From Lepidostoma basale (taxonomy: Eukaryota; Arthropoda; Insecta; Trichoptera; Lepidostomatidae): a DNA stretch of 64,000 nucleotides. The position numbers and the translations under genes were made by a program. The notes under the pieces are model-generated. The model was not told where the DNA came from, did not search any database, and worked only from the letters and a program-made list of their open reading frames with translations. Below are positions 4,546-52,551 of the stretch, in pieces (within the stretch, counting starts at the first letter, position 1; the number at the start of each line of letters is the position of its first letter). The stretch covers positions 3,626,501-3,690,500 of the forward strand of contig JAHDVF020000016.1 in NCBI GenBank assembly GCA_022606425.2, written 5' to 3'.

Positions 4546-4595
4546 GTTACGCGACAGCTGTTTCATCAACCTATGTTGACATCATCAGGTGTTAC
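4546..4595 (-). ncRNA. Hammerhead ribozyme-like motif, left arm
   Basis: The minus strand reads CTGATGA, T, stem II GTCAAC/GTTGAT with loop ATAG, GAA, the self-complementary stem III ACAGCTGT, then C17. Stem I (GTAACAC against GCGTAAC) has 5 of 7 pairs. All invariant core residues of a hammerhead are present. There is one extra U between A9 and stem II, comparable to the extra residue known in the chrysanthemum chlorotic mottle viroid plus-strand hammerhead. The loopless stem III suggests activity would need a dimer. Confidence 0.75.
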
Positions 4596-4623
4596 AATAA
4601 TATATCAAAATTATATATTATTG

Positions 4624-4770
4624 TGGCGATGAGGTTCGCAACCCATCACACCGCGTCTCTCGCGATGGCGAAAAGAGAAGGATGGAGTGCCGCATCGATT
4701 AAAGTGTGGCAGTCCATTCTTTCTGCCTACCCTTTCGGGGAGACGGCGTGATGGTTAGTTAGTTAGTTAG
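4624..4770 (+). repeat. RTE-related 3' end, variant B
   Basis: The segment reads toward its 3' end as aaccatcacaccgcgtctc-like sequence, then a conserved 55 bp tail coding WQSILSAYPFGETA, stop, and a (TTAG)n terminus. The tail is shared with the RTE-1 family, but the upstream part matches only the variant B copies at 33318, 57821 and 60414. It is inserted in the tip of the hammerhead foldback. Confidence 0.75.
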
Positions 4771-4772
4771 TT

Positions 4773-4822
4773 GTAACACCTGATGATGTCAACATAGGTT
4801 GATGAAACAGCTGTCGCGTAAA
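4773..4822 (+). ncRNA. Hammerhead ribozyme-like motif, right arm
   Basis: This is the inverted twin of the minus-strand motif at 4546-4595 and is essentially identical over 50 bp. The order is CTGATGA, T, GTCAAC-ATAG-GTTGAT, GAA, ACAGCTGT, then C17. The near-identity of the arms suggests a recent copy or arm-to-arm conversion. Confidence 0.75.
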
Positions 4823-4914
4823 ATAAATTACAATTGTGATACAAAAAACTAAGTTATTTAATTTAACAGTTTAAAATGTTAAGGTAACAAAGTGTTTCGG
4901 CCAAAACAATGGAT

Positions 4915-5780
4915 TATTTAAATAATTTTATTAAAATCTTTGTTATTTCAATGACTTATACGTGAAAACGAAATACTTAAAATATTTATTGAAGCAAATT
5001 TGTAAATATGTAATGTTACATTTGTGTTATCGTTATAATTTACACAATTTTCGTTTAAAATACATATATTGTGAGAATTCATAAGACGTTTCTTATAGAT
5101 CGTATACACAAAACCTGTAAAAAACAAATTTGACAAAGCCTTTTGCGAAAATTTAGATTTGTGCGATATTTTACTTATTAAGTCTTGTGACTGTTTTTTC
5201 AATATTTAGAGCGTTAATAAAACGGGTAACAGAGCAGATTTTATTCCCTAAGTAAACACCCCTAGGGGCTTGTATGGAAGGGCTAATGCCTGTGAACGAG
5301 TGGAGATAATATAAAACTTAAGGTGTCATAAAAACTTCAAATATTTTTATATCGTCTTAATATTTTTGTTGAATATTTTTATGGAGACGCCTCGCTCGAA
5401 AATTCTGCGAAATGTTTCACTGGGTGTTTTCATTTTTTCCGTACAACCGCTTTCTTCATTTCGCGAATTTTAATATCTATAAAATATTCCCGAATTGAGT
5501 GTTCTCGCTGCTCGTCATATTTAGATAAGTAAAGCGTGAAATGAAAAAAATAAAGTGGTGCTAAAAAACAACGTTTAATAAACATAGATGAATTGGACAG
5601 AACATGCTTATATAATTTTTTTTTAAACACCAAACCCAACCATTAAAAAAATAAATAGTTAGAATTAAAATCTGTTTATTAACTCCAGATACAGATATTA
5701 TAATACAAATAATATTAACGTTTATGGCATCTATTAAGTACAGGTAAAATATAATACCATGAACGCATGAGAAATGGTTC
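4915..5780. other. AT-rich stretch, no feature seen
   Basis: Three minus-strand frames of 69-84 codons occur (4948-5202, 5430-5639, 5561-5785). They overlap each other, are K/F/I/Y-rich and show no domain. Confidence 0.45.
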
Positions 5781-5784
5781 GTCA

Positions 5785-6150
5785 TTATGAAGACAAAATA
5801 ATCTCTAAAGTCAAGAGTATTTGTCTTCTAAAAGTACTTTCACTAATATGAAATACGTTGAACTCCGAGAAGATCGCGTTCAGTAGACTAATTTCTCTTC
5901 CCAACGGTGTTACCAGAGGCAGGTTGGTTCTGGCAGCCGGTAGGTAAAACAATCTATGCTGTCGCTGTCGGAGATATCTCTCAGGGACTAAAAAACCAAC
6001 ATATTCCAGCACGACCGAGATCTCGAAATATCCCCTGATTAATCTAAAGAAATGGGCAATGACATCTCTTCGAAGCTGCATAGAGTTGGTTCATAACATT
6101 CCCAAAAGAAATGGCGTGGGATAGAGCCCCGAATAATTACCATACTCGCT
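5785..6150 (-). pseudogene. 3' fragment of jockey/CR1-group LINE ORF2
   Basis: The minus-strand protein has LRRDVIAHFFRLIRGYFEIS, FLVPERYLRQRQHRLFYLP, RTNLPLVTPLGREISLLN and FNVFHISESTFRRQILLTLE. These are collinear with the C-terminal 110 residues of ORF2 at 48498-49973. The frame is open for 98 codons, making this the best-preserved small copy, but everything upstream is missing or shifted. Confidence 0.85.
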
Positions 6151-6154
6151 CATG

Positions 6155-6820
6155 TAGAGGAGTAAACATTCATTAATCACAGCTAAGAATTGCTAAATAT
6201 TATCTTTATAAGCAAATACATTTGGTTTATTTTCTTCAACGATTTTATTATAACAACTAGTTCATTTTAAAATCGTGCATCGTTGTGTTGGGCTAATGTA
6301 TTGTAAAAATACGAAGTGTAATTTAATTTATTCAAATAAAATCTAAATGTCCATACTATTCAATGAGTCAACTGTGTAATAATCATTAGTTCCGGAAACA
6401 CGCGTCTTCGAAACTACGATTTTTCTTGTATTCTTATAAAGTTTTGTATATAAATACGGAAACCTTTAATTAAACATAAGTAAGCTTACAGTAAAAGAAT
6501 TACTTGTGAAATATGTAAGTCTCGCAGCGCTTTTACCAAAGCTCCTTAAGGAAAAGCGCACGTCGAGCGTACCTTTTCGCGATAATTAGTCCGAGAGACG
6601 GTGCGTGTCGTTATCAATTTATTAGAACTTTAATGGAATGTTGTAAGCGTTGCTGTTGCCTAGTTGTCAATGTCGGAATTGTTTTAGTTTGCAATTAAGT
6701 TTTACTATGATTAATCTCCGGTACAAACATCGACCAATTATCCAGTAACAGGATAGTGACATGTTTTAAACAAGTTTCTAATTTACGTAAACATATGTAT
6801 GTTAGTTGTATAACTTACTA
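6155..6820. other. No recognisable feature
   Basis: The sequence is unique and AT-rich, with a GC-richer patch near 6515-6620 (gcagcgcttttaccaaagct and following). No coding or repeat signature was seen. Confidence 0.45.
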
Positions 6821-6825
6821 ATAAA

Positions 6826-6972
6826 CCATCACATCTGGGGGTAAATAGAGAGGATTGGTTGCCGTACTTTTTTACCCTGACACACATAAAAACATCATTT
6901 CATACACGCACGTCTAATATTTCAAACCTCTTTACGTGGCCAAAATTTTCAATTTGATCGTGACGCGTTTTC
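6826..6972 (-). pseudogene. RTE-1 LINE 3' end, decayed
   Basis: On the minus strand the order of RTE-1 terminal motifs is visible in diverged form: gatcaaattgaaaattttgg, then cgtgcgtgtatgaaatgatg, then gatgtgatggttt. It corresponds to the last ~150 bp of the family seen intact at 22925-23305. It lies head to head with the plus-strand fragment that follows. Confidence 0.6.
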
Positions 6973-7024
6973 TTCAGTTTACCTCTATATGTACACGTAT
7001 GCTCCTATAATATAATATAAATAC

Positions 7025-7170
7025 GTGAGAAATTGAAGAAATTAACGTCCGTGCATAACACGACGCATGAATGTTGAAAAATCGAGTGAAGTATGTCATG
7101 AAACAACTGTAGGTAAACATTGCTTACCCCTTCGGGGAGACGACGCTATGGTGAGACAGTTAGATATACA
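7025..7170 (+). pseudogene. RTE-1 LINE 3' end, decayed
   Basis: It reads cgtgcataacacgacgcatg, then aatgttgaaaaatcgag, then ccccttcggggagacgacgc, as in the RTE-1 3' end. A short deletion removes the WQSILSAYPF-coding part. Confidence 0.65.
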
Positions 7171-7329
7171 TTTCAAATTAATAATTTTATTTTGAAGCAA
7201 GAGCAAACACTGTCCGAATCAAACATCACCTTAAAATAGCAGAAATTAAATCATGCCAATTTATCCTGGGTAGAAAACCCTTAGAGATAGGTATCCAACG
7301 AAAAAATTCGCAGATCTTGCAAAAATTAT

Positions 7330-7505
7330 GACATAGTGATGAACGATGGAGTAGGTAGAAAAGACGATTCTGGAGAGATCACATCGAGAAGATGGACCAA
7401 GCAAGAATTCCCAAGATTGACATGTACGAGACTCCAGAGATGAGAGAAAGCTGGATGTCTTCATCACATGGCCAAATTTGATATCCTGACTAAATAGATT
7501 GCAAG
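7330..7505 (+). pseudogene. Relic of a LINE C-terminus (WRDHIEKM type)
   Basis: A plus-strand frame gives RRFWRDHIEKMDQARIPKI, then ETPEMRESWMSSSH. This resembles the W-R-D-H-I/V-x-R-M tail followed by a PGRPPKRW-SW-SAS motif common at the C-terminus of insect RTE-group ORFs. A fragment of the same kind lies on the minus strand at 55990-56085. The match is short and decayed. Confidence 0.4.
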
Positions 7506-7509
7506 ACCT

Positions 7510-8035
7510 GCAAAAAAGAGAAAAGAAGTTTAATTTTTAAATTATGCGAGTTTTATTTTCTTTCCACACGCTTACATTTAATGGACGATTTATTTTGCTG
7601 GCGAATAATGGTTGCGTTTTTAAATACCTTTTGCGTTTTAGGCAGGTACCGGAATAAATGGTTTCACGGCAATTTTTAGCAGCTCACGAACGCATTACTT
7701 TTTAGCAAATGCGAAAAAAGGACGCCAGAGGTCATTTTTATTAAAATTTTCGAGTTTTCCAGTCTGCGATCCCGCCCGTACTCATTTTAATTATAAATCT
7801 GTTTTGTGTATTATCCGCTTAAAATGATACATTGAAAACTTCGTTTTGGAATTTTTACCTTTCATTAAGGAATTTTAATTGAATTTAACACTTTGAAACT
7901 AATATGATGAAAATTTGAATATATGCTACGAGTGTGTTTATGTTTTTAATAATGTTACTAACACATATATTGTATTTTATTTATTACATAAGCAGTATAG
8001 GCATCAGCTCACCGAATAAAATAAATAAATATGTG
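7510..8035. other. No recognisable feature
   Basis: Unique AT-rich sequence without a coding or repeat signature. Confidence 0.45.
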
Positions 8036-8069
8036 TTGGTAATTTTTAACCCTTAACTGGGCGTCGACA

Positions 8070-8175
8070 ATATTATTTAACAAAATTAGTTAAATAATAT
8101 TGTTTTTAAACTTACAGAAATAAAATAATAAAACATTTTGTATTTAACCACGGTATGGTTATTATAATTGATGCC
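8070..8175. repeat. Foldback relic
   Basis: A short perfect inverted repeat (aatattatttaac/gttaaataatatt) is followed by ttgtatttaaccacggtatgg. The latter also forms the arm of the foldback at 55838-55985. No hammerhead core remains. Confidence 0.5.
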
Positions 8176-8224
8176 AACTACATAGTTATGCTTGGACCCA
8201 AGTTTACCGAACCGCTGTTCGACG

Positions 8225-8945
8225 CGTTCCGAAGCAACTGAATTTTCTTCAAAACAGTACCTTGAACAGGTATCTTTGGACATGGTTGATCGTGTGAATT
8301 CCGATCAATATTCATGAAACGCATCATAACTGGCAATGAAACTTGGATCTATAAGTATGAAAATTGCAAACAAGTCACCAATCATGGGAATAGTTGGAGA
8401 AAAACAAGCCAAAAACAAAGAAACCACGCCAAAGTCGCTCAAAAATCAAAGTGATGGTCATTTTTCGGTATTCGCGCTGTGGTCCATCATGAATTCATTC
8501 CAGGAAACAAACGGTTAATAAGGAATACTATTTGGTGGATATTTGTTGATGTGTTTACGTAAAATAATCTGTCAGAAACGGCCGGAATTGTGGAAAAACA
8601 ATCAATGTATTTTACACGACGAAAATGCGCCATAGCTTATAGCTTCAATCGAGACCGAATTCAATGCAAAAAACGCGATTAATAGCATCGAATAACAATC
8701 ATATTCTCCGGATTTGGCTCCGTTTGACTTTTTTTGGTTCCCGAAACTCAAATGGCCGCTCCATGGATCCCGTTTCGAGTCGTGAAGGAAAAATCGTTGA
8801 AGGATTTGAAGACTATACTAGAATGTGCCTACCAGAAGTGTTTTTCGGAATGAAAAAAACTCTGCCATATGTGTATTGCATCCATTGGGTGATACTTTAG
8901 AGGCGATAAAAATATTTATGAAAAATTAAATATTTTGGGTATTAA
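8225..8945 (+). pseudogene. Degenerate mariner transposase
   Basis: Broken plus-strand frames carry mariner landmarks in order. RIITGNETWIYKYE corresponds to the first catalytic Asp block, with Asp replaced by Asn. A decayed HDN-like segment lies near 8610. YSPDLAPFDFFLFPKLKW-like sequence lies at 8700-8755 with a frameshift. RFESVKEKSLKDLKT and a C-terminal ASIGDTLEAIKIF follow. The first Asp is lost and several stops are present, so it cannot be active. It is a different mariner lineage from the copy at 16399-17685. Confidence 0.75.
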
Positions 8946-8948
8946 CCC

Positions 8949-9018
8949 CAGTATGTACTACTTTGACAATAATAAGTAAATTTTCAGTTACTTATTATTG
9001 TCAAAGTAGTACATACTG
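8949..9018. repeat. Perfect 31 bp hairpin
   Basis: Arms 8949-8979 and 8988-9018 are exact reverse complements (cagtatgtactactttgaca and following) around an 8 bp loop. It directly follows the mariner relic and could be a small foldback insertion. Confidence 0.8.
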
Positions 9019-9054
9019 AAATTTCTAATCGCGAGCAAAATAATACTGAACTTT

Positions 9055-9180
9055 CGTATGAAGCACTTAATTTTGTGGTGTGGCATTATTAAATATGATA
9101 TTAATACATATGTACTCGTATATTTGTATTTAAAAACCAACCGGTTTCGCTCCCGCCGGAGCTTCATCAGGGTTACAAAA
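9055..9180 (-). repeat. Hammerhead element (ACCGGT type), single arm
   Basis: Minus-strand order: hammerhead-like motif, about 80 bp body, then a tail containing aattaagtgcttcat. The same tail is found at 25255, 28235, 35828 and 36918. The opposite arm, if it existed, is absent. Confidence 0.75.
9134..9176 (-). ncRNA. Hammerhead ribozyme-like motif (ACCGGT type)
   Basis: Minus strand: stem I AACC/GGTT, CTGATGA, A, stem II GCTCC/GGAGC, GAA, palindromic stem III ACCGGT, then U17. Every core position matches the consensus apart from one added A between A9 and stem II. With all three stems paired, it is one of the best candidates in the window for an active ribozyme. Confidence 0.75.
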
Positions 9181-9184
9181 GATA

Positions 9185-9638: not shown

Positions 9639-9640
<2 letters not shown>
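9185..9640. other. No recognisable feature
   Basis: Unique AT-rich sequence. A 67-codon minus frame (9349-9552) has no recognisable domain. Confidence 0.45.
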
Positions 9641-10640: not shown

Positions 10641-10644
10641 ATTT

Positions 10645-12485: not shown

Positions 12486-12591
12486 ATCTAAACAATAAAT
12501 ATAAAATATTTAACCTATATTAAAAAACAGTTATAAATTATAACTGTAAATTCAAAAACTTTGTTTTATATCAAAAATTGTATTTATTTTA

Positions 12592-12640
12592 CTTTACGAC
12601 AGCTGTTTCATCAACCAATTTTGACATCATCAGGTGTTAA
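12592..12640 (-). ncRNA. Hammerhead ribozyme-like motif
   Basis: Minus strand: CTGATGA, T, stem II GTCAA/TTGAT with loop AATTGG, GAA, ACAGCTGT, C17. Core residues are complete; stem I has only two good pairs. Confidence 0.7.
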
Positions 12641-12713
12641 AAAAATAAATCAAATGTCAAATTTTCGTAATTTTTCGAAAAATTACGAAAATTTGACATT
12701 TGATATATATTTT

Positions 12714-12765
12714 TATAACATCTGATGATGTCAACATTGGTTGATGAAACAGTTGTCGTAAAGTA
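12714..12765 (+). ncRNA. Hammerhead ribozyme-like motif
   Basis: Plus strand: CTGATGA, T, GTCAAC/GTTGAT, GAA, ACAGTTGT (pairs as ACAG/TTGT with one G-U), C17. It differs from its inverted partner in the stem II loop and stem III but keeps pairing. Confidence 0.7.
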
Positions 12766-12859
12766 AAATAAATACAATTTGTGATATAAAACAAAAATTT
12801 TGAATTAACAGTTATAAAATGTTAAAATATCATAGTGTTTCGGCCAAAACAATATAGTT

Positions 12860-13265
12860 ATAAATTAAATAATAGAAACAATTAAATCTTAAACCTATAT
12901 TAAAAAACTGTATTTCCGTGTTGAAATGAGAGGCTTTGTTCTTGCACCGGAAACTATAACGACCTGGAGCAGGAAAGTGCACCCTAACAAGAGGCAGTCG
13001 AATCGAAATGTCTAACCAATCCCACCCCTTCAGTCACACTAACCCGGTGGTCTGCTACATTCTCAAAGGAAGCTCAAAACTAGCAACCGAACGTTGTATG
13101 CACGAGATGTGTCCAAGTATAACAATGAACGCTAAATATTTCTCAGTGTGCAAATTAACCTTTATTTTACGGCTGGCTTCATTTGCAGTCCAAAAAAAAT
13201 TGTTTCTTATTACGGCAAGTACATTTGCAGTTGAAATGTGAATATCATTTTTTTAAACATTTTTT
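12860..13265. other. Unique stretch, no feature seen
   Basis: It contains a 77-codon frame (13008-13241, +) with ATG but no recognised domain. The segment 12900-13110 is GC-richer and non-repetitive within the window. Confidence 0.4.
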
Positions 13266-13784: not shown

Positions 13785-13930
13785 ACAAAAACACCGTCGA
13801 TCATAAAAACAAAGCTGAAACCGGTCGATCATAAACACAAGTGGAAGCACACTTAATACATAATAATAAAGAAATTTTTGGTTTTCATTATTTAAAATGA
13901 ACTTCTACCAAGAAATTTCAATTAAAAACA
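13785..13930 (+). repeat. Hammerhead-like relic and tail (GGCAGC-stem family)
   Basis: ctgaaaccggtcgatcataa is followed by gtggaagcacacttaataca and aataataaagaaatttttgg. This matches the downstream region of the motif at 42487-42525. The 5' half of the core is gone. A converging tail from another copy follows (aaatgaacttctaccaagaa). Confidence 0.65.
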
Positions 13931-14450: not shown

Positions 14451-14534
14451 TATTGTTTCGGCATTCACTTTGTGGTAGGACATGATTAAATTGTAAATAA
14501 AACACTTGTTTCTTACCACTTGAGTATTATATTT

Positions 14535-14580
14535 TACACGACTAGTTTCGGAGGCTACAGATACTTCCATCTACAGGATT
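14535..14580 (-). ncRNA. Hammerhead-like motif, variant core
   Basis: Minus strand: CTGTAGA, T, a stem II of GGAAG against CCTCC (imperfect), GAA, palindromic ACTAGT, C17. A6 of the core is replaced by U, so cleavage is doubtful. Confidence 0.55.
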
Positions 14581-14588
14581 CAATATTG

Positions 14589-14635
14589 AAACCTGTAGAT
14601 GGAAGCATCTGTAGCTTCCGAAACTAGTGGTGTAA
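14589..14635 (+). ncRNA. Hammerhead-like motif, variant core
   Basis: Plus strand: CTGTAGA, T, perfect stem II GGAAGC/GCTTCC, GAA, ACTAGT, then G at position 17. A G17 normally blocks cleavage and A6 is U, so this arm is predicted to be inactive. Confidence 0.55.
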
Positions 14636-14753
14636 AATATAATACTCAAGTGGTGAAAAACAAGTGTTTTATTTACAATTTTATATAAACATAATTAAAA
14701 AAATTATTTCAATAATAAAGCGTCCTATAACCGAAGTCATTAAAAATAATAAA

Positions 14754-16398: not shown

Positions 16399-17685
16399 TT
16401 AGGTCCTTACATATGAAATTGGCGTTTTGTATGGGAGGAACATAAAGTTGATTTTTTTTTTATATTATAAATTTATTTAATCAAAGTATGTACCATTGCT
16501 ATCTATGCACTTTTGCCATCTCATAGGTAGTTCATCGATCCCTTTACTAAAAAAAACATTCGGACGGGGATCAATAAAATCTTTGAAGTCGGTTTGGACT
16601 GCCCCATCGGAGTTGAATTTTTTCCCTTGCAAGAAGTTATCCAAATTTCGAAAAAAATAGTAATCTGTTGGGGCAAGATCCGGAGAGTACGGTGGATTTC
16701 TTAGACACTCCAATTGAAGCTCTTCTAATTTGGTAGCCGTCTGTTGTGCAGTGTGTGGTCTAGCGTTATCATGAAGCAGCAGTGGCCTAGAGCGATTAAC
16801 CAGCCTCGGTTGTTTAGCAGCTAGCTTTTCCATCATGGTTTGCAGTTGCTGACAATAGACATCTGCCGTAATCGTCTGGCCAGATTTAAGAAAGCTGTAG
16901 TGAACGACACCAGCACTAGTCCACCAAACGCTCACAAGTAACTTTTTTGGAGTCAATTTTCGCTTGGGGCATGGTTTGGCTGGTTCGGCAGGGTTCAGCC
17001 ATTGCGATGAGCGCTTCTGATTATCATACAGGATCCACTTTTCATCACAGGTAATGATTCGATTCAAAATCCCTTCATTATTGTGCCGGTTGAGTAATGC
17101 AACGCAGCTGTCAACGCGCGTTTGTTGATTTGCTTCACTCAATTCGTGAGGTACCCACCTTTCAAGCTTTTTCACCTTCCCAATTTGCTTCAAGTGGATT
17201 AAAACAGTTTTATCACTAACACCGCAGCCTGCAGCTAACTCGGACGTGGTTTGCGATGGATCCGCTTCCACAATAGCCTTCAATTCTTCATTATCAACTT
17301 TGGTCTCCGGCCGTCCACGGGGCTTGTTCTGCAGGTCGAAATTTCCAGAACGAAAACGTTGGAACCAAAAACGCACTGTGTTTTCTTTTGCGGCACCGTC
17401 GCCATACACATCATTATTCCTTCGAGCCGTTTCTGCAGCACTGGTGCCACGGTGTAACTGGTGTACCGTAAATAACGCGATATTTCAAATTTTCCATTTT
17501 GTAAACTGAGTGACGCAAAGAAAAAAAAAATTGAGAAAAAAACAAATGAATTATAATTTTCGAAACACAAATACTTGAGTAAATAGCTGTATAAATTTGA
17601 ATTTGGAATTTCTAACCAAAGAGAAGATATTTGAGATCAAAGTTGCCAGTACGGCAAAACGCCAATTTCATATGTAAGGACCTAA
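16399..17685 (-). mobile_element. mariner transposon, nearly intact
   Basis: The 1,287 bp element is bounded by perfect 31 bp terminal inverted repeats (ttaggtccttacatatgaaa and its complement) and flanked by TA on both sides, the expected target duplication of Tc1/mariner elements. Its length is typical of mariner. It carries a single transposase gene on the minus strand, damaged only near its N-terminus. The perfect repeats suggest a young insertion. Confidence 0.95.
16477..17496 (-). pseudogene. mariner transposase, N-terminal frameshift
   Basis: This DDD-family cut-and-paste transposase would bind the terminal repeats and insert at TA. An N-terminal paired helix-turn-helix region is followed by the catalytic domain. 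The first Asp is in ITCDEKWILYDN, the second in LLHDNARPHTA, and the third, after 34 residues, in YSPDLAPTDYYFF, giving the D,D34D mariner signature. An in-frame region of 310 codons is open from about 17409. The likely ATG at 17496 begins MEN in another frame; about two bases appear lost near 17475, so the N-terminal ~30 residues are out of frame. Catalytic residues are intact. Confidence 0.9.
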
Positions 17686-18840: not shown

Positions 18841-18990
18841 CGTATCTTAATCGCCTAATTAATTATTTATGTTGTTGATTGAAATTTCTTGGTAGAAGTT
18901 CATTGTAAATAATGAAAATAAAAATAAAATATTAAGAATTTTTCTATGTTTATTTTTAGTGTAAAATCTACTTATTAATTTTCGTCTTCG

Positions 18991-19031
18991 ACCGGTTTCG
19001 GCAGCTCGCTGCCATCTTCTGGTACCTACAT
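18991..19031 (-). ncRNA. Hammerhead-like motif with U4 to A
   Basis: Minus strand: CAGAAGA, T, perfect stem II GGCAGC/GCTGCC with loop GA, GAA, ACCGGT, C17. The fold is complete except that position 4 is A instead of U. The same substitution is in the other arm and at 42487. Confidence 0.6.
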
Positions 19032-19860
19032 CAAACTTTATTGTCCTTATATAGGGGATGCTTATGGTGGGGGTTGAATTGTGAACGATTTTACCTAATC
19101 CATTATTTCCAGGTATTTTTAACTGTAAATTTGTGTATATAATTAAAATGATCTGACTAATGTTGACAAAGATACAATACAGAGAATTTTTTAAATGACT
19201 AATTCTATGAAAATATGTTATGGTTTGTATATAATTAAAAGGTTATTAAGGATACAAAGTGATGCTATACAATGAAAGGTTTTTAATGGATTGTTTAGTT
19301 AAAGTGAATTTAATAATATATGAGATAACTAATTGGCTCCGATTTTGATGATTGGTGAACTCGTTTGGACTGCAATTCTGAAACAAAATTATTTTTCCGG
19401 CGGATTACATGTTCTTTGAAATGGTGAAATGATTAAGATTCAGAATATGAAATATTGTAATTATTTACAGTGGGTATAGGAGTGGGGAGTGTACATACAA
19501 AAGTTGTTCATTTAAAATATTTTTTTGTTTATTATTTTTTAATCTGTTAATTTCAAGGATTTCTAGTTTATCTAGTTTTGATCCTTTTGGTTGTATATGC
19601 AAGATCCTACTGTTGTTGCTACAGTAACCTTAATAACCTTTTAATTATATACAAACCATAAAATATTTTCATAGAATTAGTCATTTCGAAATTCTCTGTA
19701 TTGTATCTTTGCCAACATTAGTCAGATTATAAATCACATTTTAATTATATACACAAATTTACAGTTAGAAAAACCTGGAAATAATGGATTAGGTAAAATC
19801 GTTCACAATTCAACCCCCACCATTAGCATCTCCTATATAAGGACAATAAAGTTTGATATA

Positions 19861-19904
19861 GGTACCAGAAGATGGCAGCGAGCTGCCGAAACCGGTCGAA
19901 GACG
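19861..19904 (+). ncRNA. Hammerhead-like motif with U4 to A
   Basis: This is the inverted twin of the motif at 18991-19031, identical over the core, stem II and stem III. Confidence 0.6.
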
Positions 19905-19959
19905 AAAATTAATAAGTAGATTTTACACTAAAAATAAACATAGAAAAATTCTTAATAAC

Positions 19960-20365
19960 ATTTTTTTATTTTCTTTATGCCTAATTAATTCTTTATGATT
20001 AACACGTAATGGGTAAAATCCAGTATTTGTCTACAAATATTTGTATACATTCAAAAAACAAAAAGGTTATATTATTATTTATTATATTTTTGTTCCTTAA
20101 AACCTGTCCTATGTCTTTAATGTGTCCTCCTCTCTATTTTTCCACATTTGTCTTCTCTGTTTCTACTTTGATTTCCCGCTGTAATATGCCTGATATCGTG
20201 CTCCCTTCATCTATTTTTTGTATTATTATAAATGGATTTTTTTTATTTATAAATTTACACATACAGCGGGATATGAAGAAAAAATGAGGTGTATTAAATG
20301 TAGCCTGGGTCCTTTTTGATTTATAAATATTGTATATACCATATACACAATACTAATGTAAGTCC
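19960..20365. other. Unclassified stretch
   Basis: A 92-codon frame (20009-20287, +) has no recognised domain. No repeat was identified. Confidence 0.4.
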
Positions 20366-21034: not shown

Positions 21035-21205
21035 GAATGTCGGGCATGTGAGGAGTCAGTAAAAATTGACGCGTGTGCATGACACGATGTATGAATGTTG
21101 AGGAATCGAGAGAAATATATCAGGAAAGAAAAGTGTGGCAGTCCATTCTTTCTGCCCACCCCTTCGGGGAGACGGCGTGATGTGGTTAGTTAGTTGGTTA
21201 TATAA
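21035..21205 (+). pseudogene. RTE-1 LINE 3' end
   Basis: It reads attgaatgtcgggcatgtga, then acgcgtgtgcatgacacgat, then gtgtggcagtccattctttc and ccccttcggggagacggcgt with a GTTA-type terminus. It is closely related to 23130-23305 and is inserted in the arm of a foldback. Confidence 0.85.
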
Positions 21206-24150: not shown

Positions 24151-24284
24151 TATGACTTCTAAATCACAGGTGTACGTCAATATTTAATACGGAGTTTTAC
24201 GTCATAATTCAACAAACAATTGAATAATTAAATTTTAGATAAACTTAAGGCGTTAACACCGTGGAATTCCATAATGACGAATTT

Positions 24285-24385
24285 TTATGAATTAAAACAC
24301 TGTTCATTCCACTTTTGAAATTTCAAAAGTTTCCACTCAAAAGTGGAAAAAACAGTGTTTTAATTTATAAAAATAATTAAATGTA
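24285..24385. repeat. Imperfect hairpin
   Basis: gaattaaaacactgttcatt is complementary to the right side aaaaaacagtgttttaattt. An inner palindrome ccacttttgaaatttcaaaa/gtttccactcaaaagtgg lies between them. Confidence 0.6.
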
Positions 24386-28233: not shown

Positions 28234-28480
28234 ATGAAGCACTTAATTTGTGGTGTGACTTTATTAAATAAAATAATAATACACTTTTAGTTATTTGTTT
28301 TAACACCACTTTATTTGGTAACACCAACCGGTTTCGCTCCCGCCGGAGCTTCGTCAGGGTGAGAGAGAGGTCTCTCTCTTACCCCGACGAAGCTCCATCA
28401 AAAGTTACCAAATAAAGTGGTGTTAAAACAAATTACTAAAAACGTATTATTGTTTTATTTAATAGGTCATTTCCACACAT
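28234..28480 (-). repeat. Hammerhead foldback (ACCGGT type)
   Basis: Arms 28268-28362 and 28378-28470 are inverted and share ccaaataaagtggtgtt. A purine/pyrimidine tip (gagagagaggtctctctctt) separates them. The tail aagcacttaatttgtggtgt occurs on the left only. The left arm has a complete hammerhead-like motif. In the right arm about 20 bp with GAAAC and stem III are deleted. Confidence 0.8.
28315..28366 (-). ncRNA. Hammerhead ribozyme-like motif (ACCGGT type)
   Basis: Minus strand: stem I CACC/GGTG, CTGACGA, A, stem II GCTCC/GGAGC, GAA, ACCGGT, U17. N7 is C, which hammerheads tolerate. All three helices pair, so this is a strong candidate for activity. Confidence 0.75.
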
Positions 28481-41303: not shown

Positions 41304-41348
41304 CAGTCTGTCGATGCCAGCGAGCCTAGCGAAACCGGTCGCTGTCGA
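41304..41348 (+). ncRNA. Hammerhead-like motif (GCCAG stem)
   Basis: Plus strand: stem I CAGT/GCTG (one G-U), CTGTCGA, T, stem II GCCAG.. against CCTAGC with one mismatch, GAA, ACCGGT, C17. A6 is replaced by U. Downstream gaaataaagacaaaagtgga matches the relic at 10528-10640. Confidence 0.55.
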
Positions 41349-42413: not shown

Positions 42414-42580
42414 TGAAATTTCTAGGTAGAAGTTCATTTTAAATAATCAAAAATAAATTATACAATATTTGTTTATTAGACTTTATTCAGCAGAAGATGG
42501 CAGCAAGCTGCCGAAATCGGTCGACGATAAACATACGAGGAAGCACACTAAATATATAATAATAAAGAAATTTTTTATCA
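42414..42580 (+). repeat. GGCAGC-stem hammerhead element
   Basis: A reverse tail (ctaggtagaagttcatttta) lies on the left. A hammerhead-like motif and the body acgaggaagcacactaaata follow on the right. The arms are no longer paired outside the core. Confidence 0.65.
42487..42525 (+). ncRNA. Hammerhead-like motif with U4 to A
   Basis: Plus strand: CAGAAGA, T, stem II GGCAGC/GCTGCC, GAA, ATCGGT (one change from the ACCGGT palindrome), C17. Confidence 0.55.
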
Positions 42581-42607
42581 AATATTTTGATATTTTCATG
42601 ATTTTAC

Positions 42608-42836
42608 TGTTAAAAATTATAACACTTTTATAATATCACAGTTTATTTTTATTCACTGAATGTTGCGACAGCTGTTTCGCCAAACGATGTTGGCATCATC
42701 AGGTGTTATCGGTTGACGAAACAGCTGTTGTAACATTCTCAGTGAATAAAAATAAATTATGGTATTATAACAGTGTTATAAAATTTAACAGTAATAATGT
42801 TGAAGTATCATAGTGTTTCGGTTAAAACAATGTACT
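42608..42836 (+). repeat. Hammerhead foldback (ACAGCTGT type)
   Basis: Arms ttattcactgaatgttgcga and its complement flank a short tip. The left arm holds a full motif; the right arm keeps only GAAACAGCTGTT. The right tail ends in gtgtttcggttaaaacaatg. Confidence 0.8.
42662..42710 (-). ncRNA. Hammerhead ribozyme-like motif
   Basis: Minus strand: CTGATGA, T, stem II GCCAA/TTGGC, GAA, ACAGCTGT, C17. Stem II differs from the 4546 copy (GTCAAC/GTTGAT) but pairs, a compensatory change within the family. Stem I is weak. Confidence 0.7.
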
Positions 42837-42844
42837 ATGAAACA

Positions 42845-43620
42845 TGATTTTATTTGATTATTATACTTCAACAAAATAACAAAATTAAGTCTGCAAAATT
42901 CATGAATTATTTAATAATCTATTGCGTACGTTTATTAAGCTATTTATTCATCAATCAATTCATTTATTTATACCCTCTACGCTTAATTTAATAATATCAA
43001 CTCCTATCGATTTGTTTGATAAACAAGAATTTGGCGAAATTACTTTTGTGTAGCCACTTCAAATTAAGCTTTTCAATTTGACGATTCATTAAATCGTTAT
43101 AAATTGTGAGTCGAACGTCGATTTTATTTAGTGAAATTTTCCCCTTTACCTACTGGTATAAAATTTCGAGATTGCTATCGAATACCCGCTTAAACATTTC
43201 AAATTTAATGTTTGCTTCGGTAGAGTCTCGTAAAAATGGACATTAAACGTAAAAAGCGTAGCAAGGATACTAAAAAATCTATGATATCGACATTGATTAA
43301 AAAACGAGTTCGACACTAAAATTTTCAACAGTTGTTTCGGAAATAAAACATGACACTGGCAATTCATCGCAATTCTTTGTGATCTTATGTTAACTGAATA
43401 AATTCAAAAACTTCTATTCAAAGATTCAGATCTTATTTATTTTTTATCTAATGCTGCTCTTGAATTAGCTAATTAAATATATAGATGTACTAACATATCA
43501 TACAGTTAATTCAATAAATTTTTAATTAAAATTAGTTATTTTTACATTGTACACAGTATTTTGAAAATTACACAAAAGAGAAGCACAATATTTTAAATTT
43601 AAAGTAAAAACTCATAGCTA
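42845..43620. other. No recognisable feature
   Basis: AT-rich; a 73-codon minus frame (43146-43367) lacks a domain. Confidence 0.45.
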
Positions 43621-45658: not shown

Positions 45659-45659
45659 G

Positions 45660-46089
45660 AAAATTACTCCTAATTTCATGCAAACTACATAACATATCAA
45701 CATTGGTGACGTCAATCGCACGGTGATGACCTGTATGTGTAGCTGTTGAGAATGTTTGTGTTTTTTGTGAATTTACTAAGTTAAATTTAGTGAAAAGTTG
45801 TGCATCTAATAAAAAAATTGTGTTTTCATGATATTTCATAAAATTGCAGTGTTAAACTAAACCATTTTTTATGTTTTAATCATTTAAAAATTTGTTTAAG
45901 TGAACATTTTGACAACTGTCAAAAGTGTTTTTTAGAAATTTGTTTGAACTGTTTCGAACTAATTTCAAATCAAAATTGAACTATTTTGTTATAAAGTAGG
46001 TGCTTGACGACATCGGGTCGGACAATTGTTATCAATTCCGTTTTATTTTCCATTCATTAATTATTTCATTAATTTGTAATCTTTTTAAA
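45660..46089 (+). promoter_or_regulatory. Presumed LINE 5' UTR
   Basis: Sequence between the preceding foldback and the ORF1 start codon. LINEs of this group carry an internal promoter here. No target duplication could be matched to the 3' flank, so the true 5' end is uncertain. Confidence 0.4.
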
Positions 46090-47103
46090 ATGTGTGATCA
46101 TGGTGATCTTTTGTGGGAAATTAGGTCCATCCATCTTAAAATGGACCAGCTAAATTCTACAGTGGCTGCATTGGTGGGAAGATTGGGAGGATGTGAGTGT
46201 GGAAAACAATCTGATGACTCGTCCTTAGCCAAGAGGGATGTATCGAGTCCAGTTTCGCGACCTGCATCGCCTGCTTCCTCCATCTCTGCATCGCCTACAG
46301 CCGTGACTACATCGCCGGCATGCGCAGTGCCTCCTGTGAAGTCTGCCATTACCCCTGATCTTACTGTCGAAGCTGCTGCAGCGGAACCGGTTCCCGCCCC
46401 GATGCTGTACTCGACTGCTGCAGCGGTAGATCAACCGAAAGGGATGGTGACGAGATCTCTGACGGCGGGTGCAATGCGGGGTGCATGTACCGGTGCTAGA
46501 CCCAAAGGCGGAGCGGACCGCTCATCTGCAGCGGCACCTTCATCTGTCCCAGCTGCGATATCTTCATCTATCCCGGCGGCAGCACCTTCGCCTGTCCCAG
46601 CTTCGCCTGTCCCAGCCGCACCACCTTCATCTGTCCCGGCTACGCCATCCTCATATAGCCCGGACGCAGTGGGCCAACCTGGCCCGGCTGCAGCATATGC
46701 ATCCGACTCGGCTGCGCCACCTACATCTGGCCTGGCTGTGGCACCTTCGTCTGACGTTTCAGAACCGTGGAGAACTGTCTCCGGTAAAAGACGCGTCGCT
46801 ATCCGGGGTGCTCGTAGGGACAGTGGTGAGGGAGGTGGTAATCTCAAGTACTACCACATCTATCCCTTGCATTCGGACACCTCGTGCGACGACGTGTCCA
46901 ATTATTTATCGTCACTGTGTGCTACTGCTTCATTCACAGTACACAAAATTGGGTCTAAGGGTAACTATGCATCCTTCAAAATGGGTATTCCGGAGTCGGC
47001 TGTGAAGGAAGTAATCGTGGCGGGAAATTGGCCTCGTCACTCCTTCATCAGAGAGTGGGAGGTCAATCGTATTGTGCCACGGTTGCCAAGAACATCCAGC
47101 TGA
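46090..47103 (+). CDS. LINE ORF1 protein
   Basis: I take the ATG at 46090 (MCDHGDLLWEIR) as the start; the open frame reaches back to 46000 only through a GTG. That gives about 337 residues. The N-terminus (about residues 1-45) is heptad-like (IRSIHLKMDQLNSTVAALVG) and may form a coiled coil. Residues about 50-240 are a low-complexity A/P/S-rich linker. The C-terminal ~110 residues (EPWRTVSGKRR to RIVPRLPRTSS) contain the YYHIYPLHSDTS, YASFKMGIPES and WPRHSFIREW blocks typical of ORF1 proteins in this LINE group. No CCHC zinc knuckle is present. It should bind element RNA. The frame ends at a TGA that is in phase with ORF2. Confidence 0.8.
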   Translation: MCDHGDLLWEIRSIHLKMDQLNSTVAALVGRLGGCECGKQSDDSSLAKRDVSSPVSRPASPASSISASPTAVTTSPACAVPPVKSAITPDLTVEAAAAEPVPAPMLYSTAAAVDQPKGMVTRSLTAGAMRGACTGARPKGGADRSSAAAPSSVPAAISSSIPAAAPSPVPASPVPAAPPSSVPATPSSYSPDAVGQPGPAAAYASDSAAPPTSGLAVAPSSDVSEPWRTVSGKRRVAIRGARRDSGEGGGNLKYYHIYPLHSDTSCDDVSNYLSSLCATASFTVHKIGSKGNYASFKMGIPESAVKEVIVAGNWPRHSFIREWEVNRIVPRLPRTSS

Positions 47104-49973
47104 CTCCGCAAACCCAACACTGAATTGGCATTTTATTACCAAAATGTCAGAGGATTGAAATCCAAGTCCTCAACATTCTACAACAACGTCTCAATTATAA
47201 GTGCTGACGTCATTACACTGACTGAGACGTGGTTAAATATCAATGTGTTGTCCTCCGAGATTTTCGACATGGAATCATTCTTGGTATTTCGAAGGGACAG
47301 AGACAATGGAGCCGGCCTCAGGCAGGGAGGAGGTTGTCTCTTAGCCCTTCGAAAGGGGGATGTGTTGCAGGCCGAACGCATTCCTGAATTAGAGTCTGAC
47401 CACGAGGATCTCTGGGTGAGGATAGTTCATTGTAATCACATAATATGTGTTTGCGTTGTGTACTTCCCGCCAGGCTCCACCTACGAAGTGTACAAACATT
47501 TTTTTGACCGGATGCATAGTGACTCTGATACGATCGGAAGAAGAAGCATAGTTGTGGTGGGTGACTTTAACATGTTTTCCGCGCGCTCAGCACACGCTGT
47601 AGAACAAGATCTCAAATTCGTGTGCGAGGTGTTTGGACTCACTCAGTACAACTCTGTTTCCAATTCTGAATCGAGAATACTAGACCTCATTTTGTGTAAT
47701 ATCAAACTGGATGTTGCGCGTGGTCTCTATCCCCTTGTGCGTGAGGACAGGTACCATCCCGCGTTGGAATTTACTTTACACCATACCAGCAACGCAACCA
47801 AATCTTCAGCAGTACCGGGTCACGAAGGAAATTCTTTCTTTGGGTGGAATTTTGCGCAGGGAGATGTTGATAGACTGTATCGTTCCATGAGCCAGATGAA
47901 CTGGAGTGAACTCCAGGGCTTCACTGATGTGAATGAGGCAGTTGACTTTTTCTATAATTGTGTATATGATGTTTTTGATAATTGCTTTCCCAGAAGGATT
48001 CCAAATAATGGTGGACGTAGATATCCGAGATGGTTCACCCGGGAAATTATTGTGAATATAAGAATCAAACAGGCTCATCATAGGAAATGGAAGGTCACCG
48101 GCTCTCGAGATGAGTACGAACAGTTCAGGCAATACCGATCGATGGTCAGGCGTAGTGTTCGTGTGGCCTTTCGAACACATATGGACTCCATTGGAGGTAA
48201 TATCGTGGGTGATCCCGAGATGTTTTGGAATTATATTAAAACACTGCGCAAAGACGGTGGCTTTGTTGAGAATATGACGCATGGGGAGAAACATATTCGA
48301 GGAGCTGATATAGCCAGTGCATTTGCTGAACACTTCAAATCAGTGTACAGTAAAACTCCCCCAAGGCTAAATCTTGGTATGGCGACCGGTCTCACTGACA
48401 GTGGAGCACAGAATATCGATGTATATTCCCTTAATCCTACAGATGTTGAAAAATCCATTCGTAATTTGAAGAACTCACATCGGTAGGCCCCGATTTTATG
48501 CCAATTTTTTTCATAAAAGGTTGTGCAGAATTCCTAAAAGAACCGTTAAGTTTTATTTTTAACTTGGCCCTGAGTTCTAGCACATTTCCCCACTCTTGGA
48601 AAATCTCTAGGATATGTCCTATTTTTAAGAGTGGTTCTAGAGCCTCGGTCGAAAATTACAGGCCGATTGCTATTCTACCAGCACCGGCTAAACTATTCGA
48701 ATCTATGATTCACAAATTTATACTACCCGGTGTTGAACCGTTTATTATAACGGAACAACATGGGTTCAGAAAAAAACGGTCAACTGACACAAATCTTCTC
48801 ATATTTACGGATTATGTAGCCGGGGCATTGGATGCAGGTCACCAAGTAGACTGCTCGTACAATGATTTCTCCAAGGCATTCGACACCGTAAATCATGATA
48901 TTCTTATCAGTAAATTAGAAGAAATCGGTTTTTCTTCTCGTCTTGTATCTTTCTTTGTAAGTTACCTGAAAGAGAGGACACAATTTGTATCTTATGGAAA
49001 ATTTCACTCCCGACCATTTTACGTTTATTCAGGTGTACCCCAAGGCTCAAACCTAGGTCCACTTCTTTTCTCAATCTTCATAAACGATGTCGCGAAAGCA
49101 ATACACTTCTCGCGATTTCTTTTATTTGCAGATGACTTAAAACTTTTCTTAAAAATAACAACATTGGAGGACTGTTTGCGTTTGCAATCCGATATTGACA
49201 GGATTGTTGACTGGAGCAAGCGCAACCAGATTTACTTCAACATATCCAAATGTGTTATAATGTCATTCTCTAGGGCGCACTACATTACATATCATCGATA
49301 TTCCATGAGTAATGAGAGCCTCAAACGTGTATCTACTGTCAGAGATCTTGGGATAATTTACGAAAGTCGATTGACATTTCGTGCTCAGATCGAGAAGGTA
49401 TGTGACGTTTCGTTAAAGATGCTGGGTTTTGTTCTTCGAACTGTTAGGGTTTTCAGAGATACCCGGGTCCTTAGAACTCTGTATAACTCCTTAGTCAGAA
49501 GCAGACTCGAGGGAGGTGCCGTGATATGGAGTCCTCATGAGGCTCAGTATTCTCTTATGTTGGAGAGGGTTCAAAAGAAATTCTTGAGAGCCCTCTACAT
49601 GAGAGAGTACGGGGTATATCCTTGGCTCTATCCAACGGCATTTCTCTTGGGTATGCTGGGGTATAACTCCCTCGAACTAAGGAGGGAAGGATTATTAACA
49701 TCACATTTTTACAAACTGATTCGGGGCTCTATTGAGAACCCCTATGTTCTGGAGCAAATAGGTCTTTTTGTTCCTGATAACTACCTGCGACAGCGCCGAC
49801 ATCAATTGTTCTTTACTCCGTCACGCAGAACCAACCTGCCTTTGGTGATGCCAGTAGGAAGAGCAATTCGGACGCTGAATCTAATCATCTCGGATTTGGA
49901 CATTTTCAGTGTCAGTGAGGCAGTATTCAAAATAAAAATATTGCAAATTCTGGAAAGAGTACTGCCTCACTGA
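47104..49973 (+). pseudogene. LINE ORF2: endonuclease and reverse transcriptase, one frameshift
   Basis: The first frame (47104-48486) has the endonuclease: QNVRGLKSK, the catalytic TETWLN, VVVGDFNM, ILDLILCN and the terminal His in DRYHPALEF. It lacks an ATG near its start and follows ORF1 in the same frame after one TGA. A one-base loss near 48475 shifts the frame, giving a TAG at 48484. The second frame (48498-49973) holds the reverse transcriptase: SVGPDF just before, then NYRPIAILP, YNDFSKAFDTVNHD, GVPQGSNLGPLLFSIFINDV and the FADD catalytic box in LLFADDLKLF. A C-terminal domain ends KILQILERVLPH. There is no RNase H. Catalytic residues appear intact, but the enzyme is split. Confidence 0.9.
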
Positions 49974-50115
49974 CGTCGACATATTTGGATTCCTTCTGAT
50001 ATGTATGATTTTTTGGTCTCATGTTGTTTTGTTTTTTTATCTTTATAATACCATTTTGTGTCCAAATGAGTCGCCTGAATATTTTATTGTTTGTTATGTC
50101 TCATTTGTAAATGTA

Positions 50116-50158
<43 letters not shown>

Positions 50159-50159
50159 A
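49974..50159 (+). other. LINE 3' UTR and (AAAT)n tail
   Basis: The UTR contains gtgtccaaatgagtcgcctg, also present at 12200. It ends in about eleven aaat units (50116-50159), the likely reverse-transcription priming tail. Confidence 0.85.
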
Positions 50160-50380
50160 CTTGAATACATACAATGTCAATATATTATAAAATTTATACA
50201 TGTCAAGTGTTTCGTTGAAAAGGGTAACACCAAAATGTCTTGCCTGTAAAACATCAACACAAGATGGCAAATAAATAACTATGTAATAATTTTAACAATG
50301 CTTTGCCCTATAATGTTCCTTACTATTTTTCGCGTTAAAATATCTTAATTTTTTTATATTCCACTAGAACAAACTATCTA
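50160..50380. other. No recognisable feature
   Basis: AT-rich flank of the LINE. Confidence 0.4.
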
Positions 50381-50683
50381 AACTAACTAACAAACCATCA
50401 CGCCGTCTCGCCGAAGGGGTAAGCAGAAAGAATGGATTGCCACATTTTTCTTTCCTGACATATTTCTCTCGCTTCCTTAACATTCATACATTGGGTCATG
50501 CACGCGCGCCGATTTCTTTGATTCCTTACGCGGCCGATATTCAATATTTTATTTATTAGATCGTGCCACGTTTTCCTCGGTCTTCCTCTATTTCTGGTAC
50601 CATTTATATCATTAACATATAATTTTTTTACCATTCTTTCTTCATTCATTCTTTCCATGTGTCCAAACCATCTTCAATACAAA
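50381..50683 (-). pseudogene. RTE-1 LINE 3' end
   Basis: The minus-strand frame reads MERMNEERMVKKLYVNDING, RGRPRKTWHDLINKIL, RRACMTQCMNVKEAREICQE and MWQSILSAYPFGETA, stop. It is a clean, 5'-truncated relative of 22925-23305. Confidence 0.88.
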
Positions 50684-50854
50684 CATCCTAAATATTTTTA
50701 ATGTTTCAATGTATTTCAATAGTATTCAAATACTTGCATCAATTTGAGTTTGCTACATCTTGTGATTCTAGAAAATTCATTTCGACTGCAATTAAAACTA
50801 CAAATCCGACATTGAAATCTTTACAAGCCTCGGTACTAAAACGTAACTGTCTTC

Positions 50855-51050
50855 GTTTAATTTGACAGGACGTAAATTACTGCCTTAGGTTGGGCTACAG
50901 TTGCCAGGCCCGAGCTCTGAGAGAGGAGACATCCTTAACACGTGTAATTAAGCATCCTGGCGAGGCGTTAATCTGGGACTAAGATCACCCTTGGATTACC
51001 CGAGGCCTACGGTGGTATTAAACTTTACTACGAGTATACTCCGTTCTAGA
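50855..51050. other. Unique GC-richer block with homeodomain-like sites
   Basis: It contains cacgtgtaattaagcatcct, ggcgttaatctgggactaag and cccttggattacccgaggcc. The GTAATTA and TAATC/GGATTA cores, with high complexity and no repeat match, suggest host regulatory DNA. This is inferred only. Confidence 0.35.
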
Positions 51051-51210
51051 GAAAGCACACATCTGCTGTAGTCTTTTAATAATAGTTTTAAGTAGTTTTG
51101 CGTGCCTACTGCGTGGGTGGCACTAACTTTCGTAGTAGAATCGTGAACATTTTTGAAGTTTTGCTGTTAAATCGCTGAACTATTAATTTTACAGTAACAA
51201 AAAGATTCTT
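51050..51210. other. No recognisable feature
   Basis: Short unique stretch. Confidence 0.35.
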
Positions 51211-51214
51211 ATAA

Positions 51215-51305
51215 AAATAGTGTCCATGTCTCGGCTCCGTACGTCATGACTGGCAAGACGCACTATTTAAAGACTTTAATCTTGAGGCATTGTGGTATTT
51301 TGTAA
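51215..51305 (-). pseudogene. RTE-group RT fragment
   Basis: The minus strand, with one shift, reads CLKIKVFN then CVLPVMTYGAETWTL. This is the very common post-catalytic block of insect RTE-type ORFs (C-V-L-P-V-x-T-Y-G-x-E-T-W). It is short and decayed. Confidence 0.6.
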
Positions 51306-51595
51306 GTGAGAACATGACGTAATTTCCCAAACAATTACTTACTTATTATTTATTGTTTTTTAAACAACAGGTCATTTTTAATGAAGCTCTTATTTTAGGG
51401 TTTTTACATTTTTTAATAAATAAATAAAAATAATTTAAAACAACATGTTCAATTCACATTGTTTTGAACAAACAATTCAATTTGTTTTGAAACAGTTTCG
51501 CTTGCATCTTACCTTCACCATGGCAATATAAGAACTAAAATATTATCTTTTTATCTTGCTTAGACATTATCGAAAAGGTAATAAGAACTTTCCAT
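51305..51595. other. No recognisable feature
   Basis: AT-rich; a foldback-arm-like palindrome surrounds attgttttgaacaaacaatt at 51460. Confidence 0.35.
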
Positions 51596-51599
51596 TTCT

Positions 51600-51690
51600 A
51601 TGAAATACACAACAATTAATCATTAAATATTTTAGAAAACAGACGTCTTTATTCATGATTTAATATGCAGTTGTACATCCATTATTAAAG
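51600..51690 (+). repeat. ACATGT-type foldback tail region
   Basis: tattttagaaaacagacgtc, then atgcagttgtacatccatta represents the right arm end and tail. Confidence 0.55.
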
Positions 51691-52500
51691 ATAAAATAAA
51701 TTAATAATACTTCTAGTTTTGCGCAAATTACGCAACACATAAATTATAACGTCGTTTAACAAAATTCCAACAATGAATATTTTTTTCTCTTGATTACGCA
51801 AAATTTCGGAACTCAAATACTTTAATATGCCTTACATAAAATTTCAACACATTGTATTTTCTTACAAAATATCGACAAGTAAATCCTGAGATTAGGGTGT
51901 GTAATGTTTATCTCAGCGCCATAAAAAGGCCATTTGCGTATTTTTAACGTCTAGCTAAATTGTAGTTTATCCTGTCTCTAGAATTTAACGCGAAAATATT
52001 AATATCTACTGCCTCCGTATAAAGATAAAGTGGGATGAAATTTGTTTAAGCGCGAAACTCCCACGAGTCGAGCCCAGGTCGGTTATACAATTAAAACTAG
52101 TTTAAACTGGCTGCATAACCGTAATGTAACTAAGCATTTTACCCAGCACTTATCCAATTCAATTCATTTCAACCCAGGGAGAGTTTCAAATATAAATTGC
52201 GTAAATATACACATATTGTATTTACAAATATTACTTTTCGATAGATCAATCGCATCTACTTTATAATGTAGATTTTTTTCCTTACAATCATAAAAGGAAA
52301 AAAACACGACAAAGGAAAAGAAAACCAGGGGAACAGCATGAAAAATATAATAATGAGGAAAACTTGCATACTGCGTTGAAGAGTGTAGACAGGCAAACCG
52401 ACTTAGAGCAGTTGGCAACCCGTAGTGCGAAATGGAAAAGGATTGGCGCTACATGCCAGGGGCCGGAGTAAACAGGGTAAATATTATAAATAAAGTATAA
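51690..52500. other. No recognisable feature
   Basis: Several overlapping 74-95 codon frames on both strands (52042-52575) have no recognisable domain. Confidence 0.4.
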
Positions 52501-52505
52501 AAAAA

Positions 52506-52551
52506 TCAGTCCTGAGGAAGCTCGGTTGTGAGCGAAACCGGTCGACGAACT
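52506..52551 (+). ncRNA. Hammerhead ribozyme-like motif (ACCGGT type)
   Basis: Plus strand: stem I GTC/GAC, CTGAGGA, A, stem II GCTC/GAGC with loop GGTTGT, GAA, palindromic ACCGGT, C17. N7 is G, which is allowed. All invariant core positions match. Downstream ctcaaaaataaaagtggttt is unlike the other tails, so this is a separate family. Confidence 0.75.

Follow-up and report, generated by a model that had tools for sequence, protein, structure and literature searches.

Hammerhead-bearing head-to-head repeats in Lepidostoma basale as probable terminal fragments of Penelope-like elements

We examined a stretch of 64,000 nucleotides (nt) from the trichopteran Lepidostoma basale (assembly GCA_022606425.2, contig JAHDVF020000016.1, positions 3,626,501 to 3,690,500), referred to here as the window, for short repeats with hammerhead-ribozyme folds and for their relation to Penelope-like elements (PLEs). 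A preliminary description of the window had listed ten such sites, and a sequence check found every one of these stretches at its given position. All ten are real, but they are not independent and fall into about four repeat families: family A with the sites 4546-, 4773+, 12592-, 12714+ and 42662- (the sign gives the strand), family B with 9134- and 28315-, family C with 18991- and 19861+, and family D with 52506+. A strict hammerhead pattern (CTGANGA, a stem II of at least 4 bp, GAAA and a palindrome of at least 6 nt) matches seven sites in the window, compared with two summed over 100 first-order Markov shuffles. With one core mismatch allowed, the figures are ten sites in the window and 0.27 per shuffle. 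This relaxed scan includes the previously unlisted site 14593+ and misses 12714+, because the stem III of the latter (ACAGTTGT, with one G-U wobble) is an imperfect palindrome.

The stem II and stem III variants agree with those described earlier, as do the type I arrangement of the hammerhead and its very short, palindromic stem III. The proposed core order is also present, but the core of family C reads CAGAAGA with U4 changed, which makes its sites non-consensus hammerheads. Likewise, the stem III example ACTAGT exists in the window but belongs to a separate family I with the core CTGTAGA (Table 1), and the motif ACATGT, found at 25159- with a 5-bp stem II and the core TTGATAA, represents family L. 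Further sites that had been absent from the preliminary description are one of family K at 41308+ and a C-like one at 42491+. It had also been missed that most window sites are halves of head-to-head inverted pairs. More GAAACCGGT sites lie at 13817+, 25336- and 42316-, where the upstream hammerhead-like parts have decayed.

A comparison with Rfam, suggested at the outset as a check, gave no hammerhead match in the window, either at the gathering threshold or up to E=5. The model RF00163 had no match up to E=10 on L094, L093, L079, L006 and L047, and the only genome-wide hammerhead match was L001 (73 of 94,533 candidates scored). One match in 769 Mb, with the best candidates scored only, suggests that the Rfam hammerhead models miss much of this class. 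Below-threshold microRNA-like Rfam matches in the window look like AT palindromes. Long, near-perfect AT-rich palindromes, microRNA-like below the Rfam thresholds, lie at 8948-9019 and 24282-24373.

The covariation that had been claimed between families is borne out, since stems II and I pair beyond permutation across seven families. For this test, ten representative hammerheads of these families were laid out by hand, with the changed-core families C, I, J, K and L omitted, and the main count takes one row per family, leaving out rows A2, A3 and B2. For stem II, pairing then holds in 28/28 cells against a permutation mean of 16.7, and a fraction of 0.0008 of permutations did as well or better; for stem I, the count is 20/28 against a mean of 11.7 (fraction 0.007). 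With all ten rows, the counts are 40/40 for stem II and 28/40 for stem I (fraction 0.0004). Because stem II pairing helped to pick most of the sites, the stem I figure is the cleaner one and the only one free of selection; contiguous stem I amounts to only 1-2 bp in families A and E and to 0 in H. Variation is also seen within families: stem II of family A changes from GTCAAC/GTTGAT to GCCAA/TTGGC, and stem I of family B changes on both sides, with CACC/GGTG at 28315- and AACC/GGTT at 9139..9170. Judged by sequence and covariation, families A, B, D, E, F and G have the CUGANGA and GAA elements and the three stems of a type I hammerhead. The consensus core is absent from families C, I and K, which carry CAGAAGA, CTGTAGA and CTGTCGA instead.

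Core variants also recur across the examined genome, which comprises 769 Mb in 1,572 contigs. The family A pattern with the core left open has 1,529 exact matches, and CTGATGA is the core in 80 of the 100 matches listed. For family C, 116 pattern matches were obtained; among the 100 listed, CAGAAGA occurs in 81 and CTGANGA in none. The family J pattern, which fixes core positions 4-6 and 9, yielded 711 matches, with A8 in all and U3 in 99 of the 100 listed, and the U3-A8 combination is found again in seven sites of family L with a 5-bp stem II. The U4A change would be expected to leave the core poorly active. Low activity is described for another change, A6C at position 6 (PMC3088659). U3-A8 is reported there from several natural hammerheads, is called active in vitro and retains the core pair (PMC3088659). 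We had considered the family J core TTGAAAA to be broken and rejected this on the same grounds, as it represents a compensated U3-A8 pair (PMC3088659).

The anatomy of the repeats was then compared across copies. Duplicate loci (L002, L032, L041 and L042) were left out of the arm counts, in which L040 and L021 give several arms. An inverted partner lies upstream of the tail-bearing arm in 30/36 cases for family A, 23/32 for B and 6/7 for C. This left, inverted arm ends at most 8 nt from an ATG in 48 of 59 cases (A 24/30, B 19/23, C 5/6), and the right arms end inside the open reading frame (ORF), at medians of +43 (A), +36 (B) and +34 (C). Close neighbours on the same contig, counted by hand among 100 listed matches per pattern search, always run minus then plus: 8/8 pairs in family A (<1 kb), 9/9 in C (<1 kb) and 11/11 in J (<3.1 kb). 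The order at the PLE frames at C308 and C502 is two minus then two plus, with a spacing of 2,954 in both pairs at C308. Target duplications of at least 8 nt are shared by 39/65 pairs, compared with 17% when the flanks are shuffled (duplicates included). The repeats thus show the variable target-site duplications of PLEs and their inverted or direct pseudo-long terminal repeats (pLTRs) with a one-sided tail of 30-40 nt.

Many A tails read as the start of an ORF (ATG TTA AAA TAT CAT AGT GTT TCG GCC AAA ACA ATG GAC TAT TTA). The A tail at 42814 departs from this reading at TTG and AAG, both synonymous, and at GTT; the copy at 4893 contains an in-frame stop, and some A copies have no ATG. The C tails, which resemble that of the L082 element, read ATG AAC TTC TAC CAA GAA ATT TCA, and the letters of the family E tail recur at the start of a long frame at C853 (L092). 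Direct tandem units occur as well: those of family E at C335 (L117) are arranged head-to-tail with the tail joined to the 5′ end, and L021 holds three B units at 130-nt spacing beside an inverted one. The centre of the palindrome formed by 4546- and 4773+ is a repeat resembling a short interspersed element, with a TTAG tail (4640-4774), and related copies of this repeat lie at 21130, 23230, 42124 and 55676.

A link to Penelope had been suspected from the fold. It proved direct for family D and, elsewhere in the genome, extends to families E and F. Locus L082 contains a frame of 758 amino acids with RVT_1 and GIY-YIG domains, and a search of the genome with this protein gave 59 matches, many of them stop-free frames of 750-870 amino acids and others broken or short. 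Among the nearest named relatives of this protein in a large set are proteins labelled Phthorimaea and Euphydryas editha, both Lepidoptera. The family D stretch of the window equals L094 over its full length (Table 1), and the L094 stretch begins ∼30 nt beyond the stop of the PLE reading frame at C887. PLE matches at C916, C95 and C92 (loci L098, L099 and L104) have the same motif on their 3′ side, and family E hammerheads lie 3′ of PLE matches in L093, L096, L100, L102 and L106. By that scan, the 3′ regions L103 and L105 showed no motif; on either side of the PLE match of L103 (C77), however, lies a family J motif, one on the minus strand at 1600300 and one on the plus strand at 1603390. Family F hammerheads lie near GIY-YIG coding sequence in L075 and L079, and the L082 frame is bordered on both sides by family K ends that are inverted relative to each other. 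Linkage to an ORF encoding reverse transcriptase and GIY-YIG nuclease is therefore direct for D, E and K, family F lies beside GIY-YIG coding sequence, and family C is tied to a PLE ORF only through its tail. Two other GIY-YIG frames, of 623 and 621 amino acids (L062 and L064), resemble bacterial UvrC by their ORF ends and possibly lie on symbiont or contaminant contigs.

If cut RNA served as the template, the 5′ ends of insertions would be expected just after H17. None of 53 left arms of families A and B ends within 2 nt of the predicted cut and 2/53 do so within 4 nt, and 37/53 keep the whole core. We also sampled copies by their tails. These copies ranked among the top tail matches of the candidates (1,622 for E, 468 for B and 237 for A), and for A and B the sequence covered 10 of 40 such places per family. 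None of the 20 A and B copies ends within 2 nt of the predicted cut (three B alignments were poor), and neither does any of 40 E copies, one of which ends at +4. In eight of the 40 E copies, the end falls 10-17 nt before the core and 31-38 nt past the first base of a TATATAA, and 22 copies extend to -122 or beyond. Position -122, where 20/40 E walks stop, was rejected as a real end: it mostly reflects a difference in C-run length from the reference, and most walks stopping there still match upstream by eye. To judge from these ends, the results suggest that the copied RNA was usually uncleaved by the hammerhead.

Table 1. Hammerhead-bearing repeats and their target duplications in the window
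Feature	Position	Strand	Basis or remark
Left (inverted) arm of family A carrying a hammerhead, core CTGATGA at 4588	4506..4597	-	pattern scan
Family A right arm: hammerhead (core 4780), leader, tail	4771..4910	+	tail runs a few bases past the aligned end
Family B hammerhead, stem I AACC/GGTT	9139..9170	-	
Target-site duplication, left copy, 17 bp exact	12512..12528	.	
Left arm of family A, hammerhead core at 12633	12538..12642	-	
Right arm of family A with tail up to AAAACAAT; hammerhead core at 12722	12713..12854	+	
Target-site duplication, right copy, 17 bp exact	12892..12908	.	
Family I head-to-head hammerhead-like arms, GAAACTAGT at 14549-/14620+, core CTGTAGA	14487..14680	.	outer limits by eye
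Family C head-to-head insertion, core CAGAAGA at 19021- and 19866+	18853..19990	.	
Duplicated target of the family C insertion, GCCTAATTAATT	18853-18864 and 19979-19990		
Family B hammerhead, core CTGACGA, stem I CACC/GGTG	28326..28357	-	
Family K hammerhead-like site, core CTGTCGA	41308..41340	+	close to the pLTR of the L082 PLE
Family C2 hammerhead-like site, core CAGAAGA, stem III ATCGGT	42491..42522	+	
Insertion of a family A subfamily: left-arm hammerhead with core at 42702- and stem II GCCAA/TTGGC; right arm truncated but tail-bearing	42597..42852	.	CATGATTTTA at both ends
Hammerhead and leader of family D, core CTGAGGA at 52512	52504..52597	+	94/94 nt identity to L094

Repeats of other kinds are also present in the window. 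Neighbouring frames at 46000-49973 resemble, by eye, the endonuclease-like and reverse transcriptase-like ORFs of a long interspersed element, and a 335-amino-acid frame at 16477-17484 (minus strand) resembles a mariner transposase, again by eye; L077 holds a very similar piece.

The best explanation of the hammerhead repeats as a whole, to which we assign a probability of roughly 0.8, is that they are pLTR fragments of several PLE families, generated from two starts of reverse transcription on a mostly uncut template; for families A and B, we infer this membership. In each family, a minimal type I hammerhead or a variant form would precede the ORF start by ∼55-90 nt. The protein of the element, a reverse transcriptase with a GIY-YIG nuclease, would begin cDNA synthesis at two internal sites of the RNA, the first close to the start codon and the second ∼34-43 nt further in. 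Both nicked target strands could prime on this RNA, one per start; the two cDNAs would run to the RNA 5′ end and be joined there, leaving a head-to-head pair with a single tail and a duplicated target. Templates would usually be RNAs whose hammerhead is uncut, and the hammerhead may act, if at all, outside templating, for example by cutting tandem transcripts to size, either in dimeric form or assisted by protein. We infer the order of priming, the transcription start and any role of cleavage. For PAc, a PLE of the lizard Anolis carolinensis, reverse transcription in vitro is reported to begin internally, with cutting and extension of both target strands and a tail that corresponds to the stretch between the two starts; hammerhead mutants insert normally (PMC11167929). 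The arm ends found here match these two in vitro starts. The assignment of one start to each strand would be an addition of the present work that the PAc study does not support.

Several observations weigh against this explanation. No inverted partner was found for 16/75 tail-bearing arms, 11/59 left arms end more than 8 nt from the ATG, and 26/65 pairs share no 8-mer target duplication. A common 5′ boundary is clear in families B and E only, a TATA-like box was not found before D, and in C and K such a box lies only 32-36 nt before the core. A source PLE of A or B was not found among the fetched loci, no search aimed at one having been made, and the assignment of both families to PLEs therefore rests on their anatomy. 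In the PAc study, the two strands are reported to show no difference in the start of reverse transcription (PMC11167929), and for head-to-head units of Adineta vaga the authors preferred self-priming on an antisense template (PMC3846280).

Such self-priming, or snapback of a single cDNA or antisense RNA, would still make the repeats PLE fragments and differs in how the head-to-head units arise. The frequent palindromic junctions and the antisense-template proposal for the A. vaga Penelope (PMC3846280) speak for it, but snapback should copy the tail and flank, and the inverted arm stops near the ATG in 48/59 cases; we consider this origin possible, though rather unlikely. The preliminary description had instead suggested non-autonomous, retrozyme-like relatives of PLEs. 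The relation to Penelope holds, but as elements in their own right the repeats are less supported; they bear a closer resemblance to short products of PLE reverse transcription that consist of a pLTR and a tail, mostly with an inverted partner. Retrozymes would be short hammerhead units whose multimeric transcripts are self-cleaved, circularised and reverse transcribed by PLE enzymes. They would account for the high copy number (the 1,529 exact matches to the family A pattern), for the direct tandem units at C335 (E), L021 (B) and C553 (A), and for a unit of ∼130-150 nt, near the published 150-450 nt (PMC7229834). However, the usual arrangement is inverted, with few direct tandems, and none of the sampled insertions has an end within 2 nt of the predicted cleavage site. 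The A tandem at C553 was rejected as a retrozyme array because its 236-nt unit includes apparent target flank (by eye), and it looks like a later DNA duplication. A retrozyme origin is thus improbable. Inverted terminal arms with target duplications would also be produced by DNA transposons or foldback elements whose terminal repeats resemble hammerheads by chance, but the arm ends are unequal with a one-sided tail, the tails read as ORF starts, the ends of families D, E and K adjoin PLE ORFs and the stem pattern exceeds that of shuffles, which leaves this explanation barely credible.

Within the favoured explanation by PLE reverse transcription, a more tentative proposal, to which we give somewhat less than even odds, concerns catalysis. 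PLE families with consensus, U3-A8 and expected-poor (U4A, A6U) cores would all have multiplied, with insertions recording uncleaved templates, and hammerhead catalysis would therefore be dispensable for natural copying. The fold could be kept for protein binding, RNA dimerisation or the processing of tandem transcripts, and the inverted units would be two separately primed cDNAs, one per target strand.

The job of the PLE hammerhead and the origin of inverted pLTRs are questions for which two studies leave steps to be demonstrated (PMC11167929, PMC3846280). A single genome with several families, long open ORFs and core variants provides natural comparisons for both questions, and the insertion ends described here lend support to the in vitro results on the lizard element.

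Hammerheads in PLEs and inverted pLTRs are already known, and the present repeats are a further case. Minimal type I hammerheads of PLEs were reportedly described by Cervera and de la Pena in 2014 and by Luense, Weinberg and Breaker in 2017. Those found here resemble them in their position in the pLTR, the type I order and the very short stem III, and differ in the presence of several families in one genome and perhaps in the cores CAGAAGA, CTGTNGA and U3-A8. A literature search covering few subscription journals found no paper on hammerheads in lepidopteran PLEs or on target-primed head-to-head PLEs. The Penelope elements of A. vaga share inverted pLTRs, junction palindromes, a 31-bp tail and target duplications of 8-10 bp (PMC3846280). 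The main text of that paper does not contain the word "hammerhead" (PMC3846280), and in contrast to it we could map the end of the inverted arm to the start codon in three families. PAc, a Poseidon element, is similar in that two internal starts of reverse transcription define the tail; its hammerhead is unneeded for insertion in vitro (PMC11167929). Its cut site is given as 26 bp inside the ORF (PMC11167929), whereas the cut predicted here lies 55-86 nt before the ATG in families A, B, C and E. Animal retrozymes of the non-LTR (non-long terminal repeat) type likewise carry a type I hammerhead in short AT-rich repeats (PMC7229834). They are described as direct tandem arrays with canonical hammerheads (PMC7229834), whereas the repeats of L. 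basale occur mostly as inverted pairs with a palindromic stem III.

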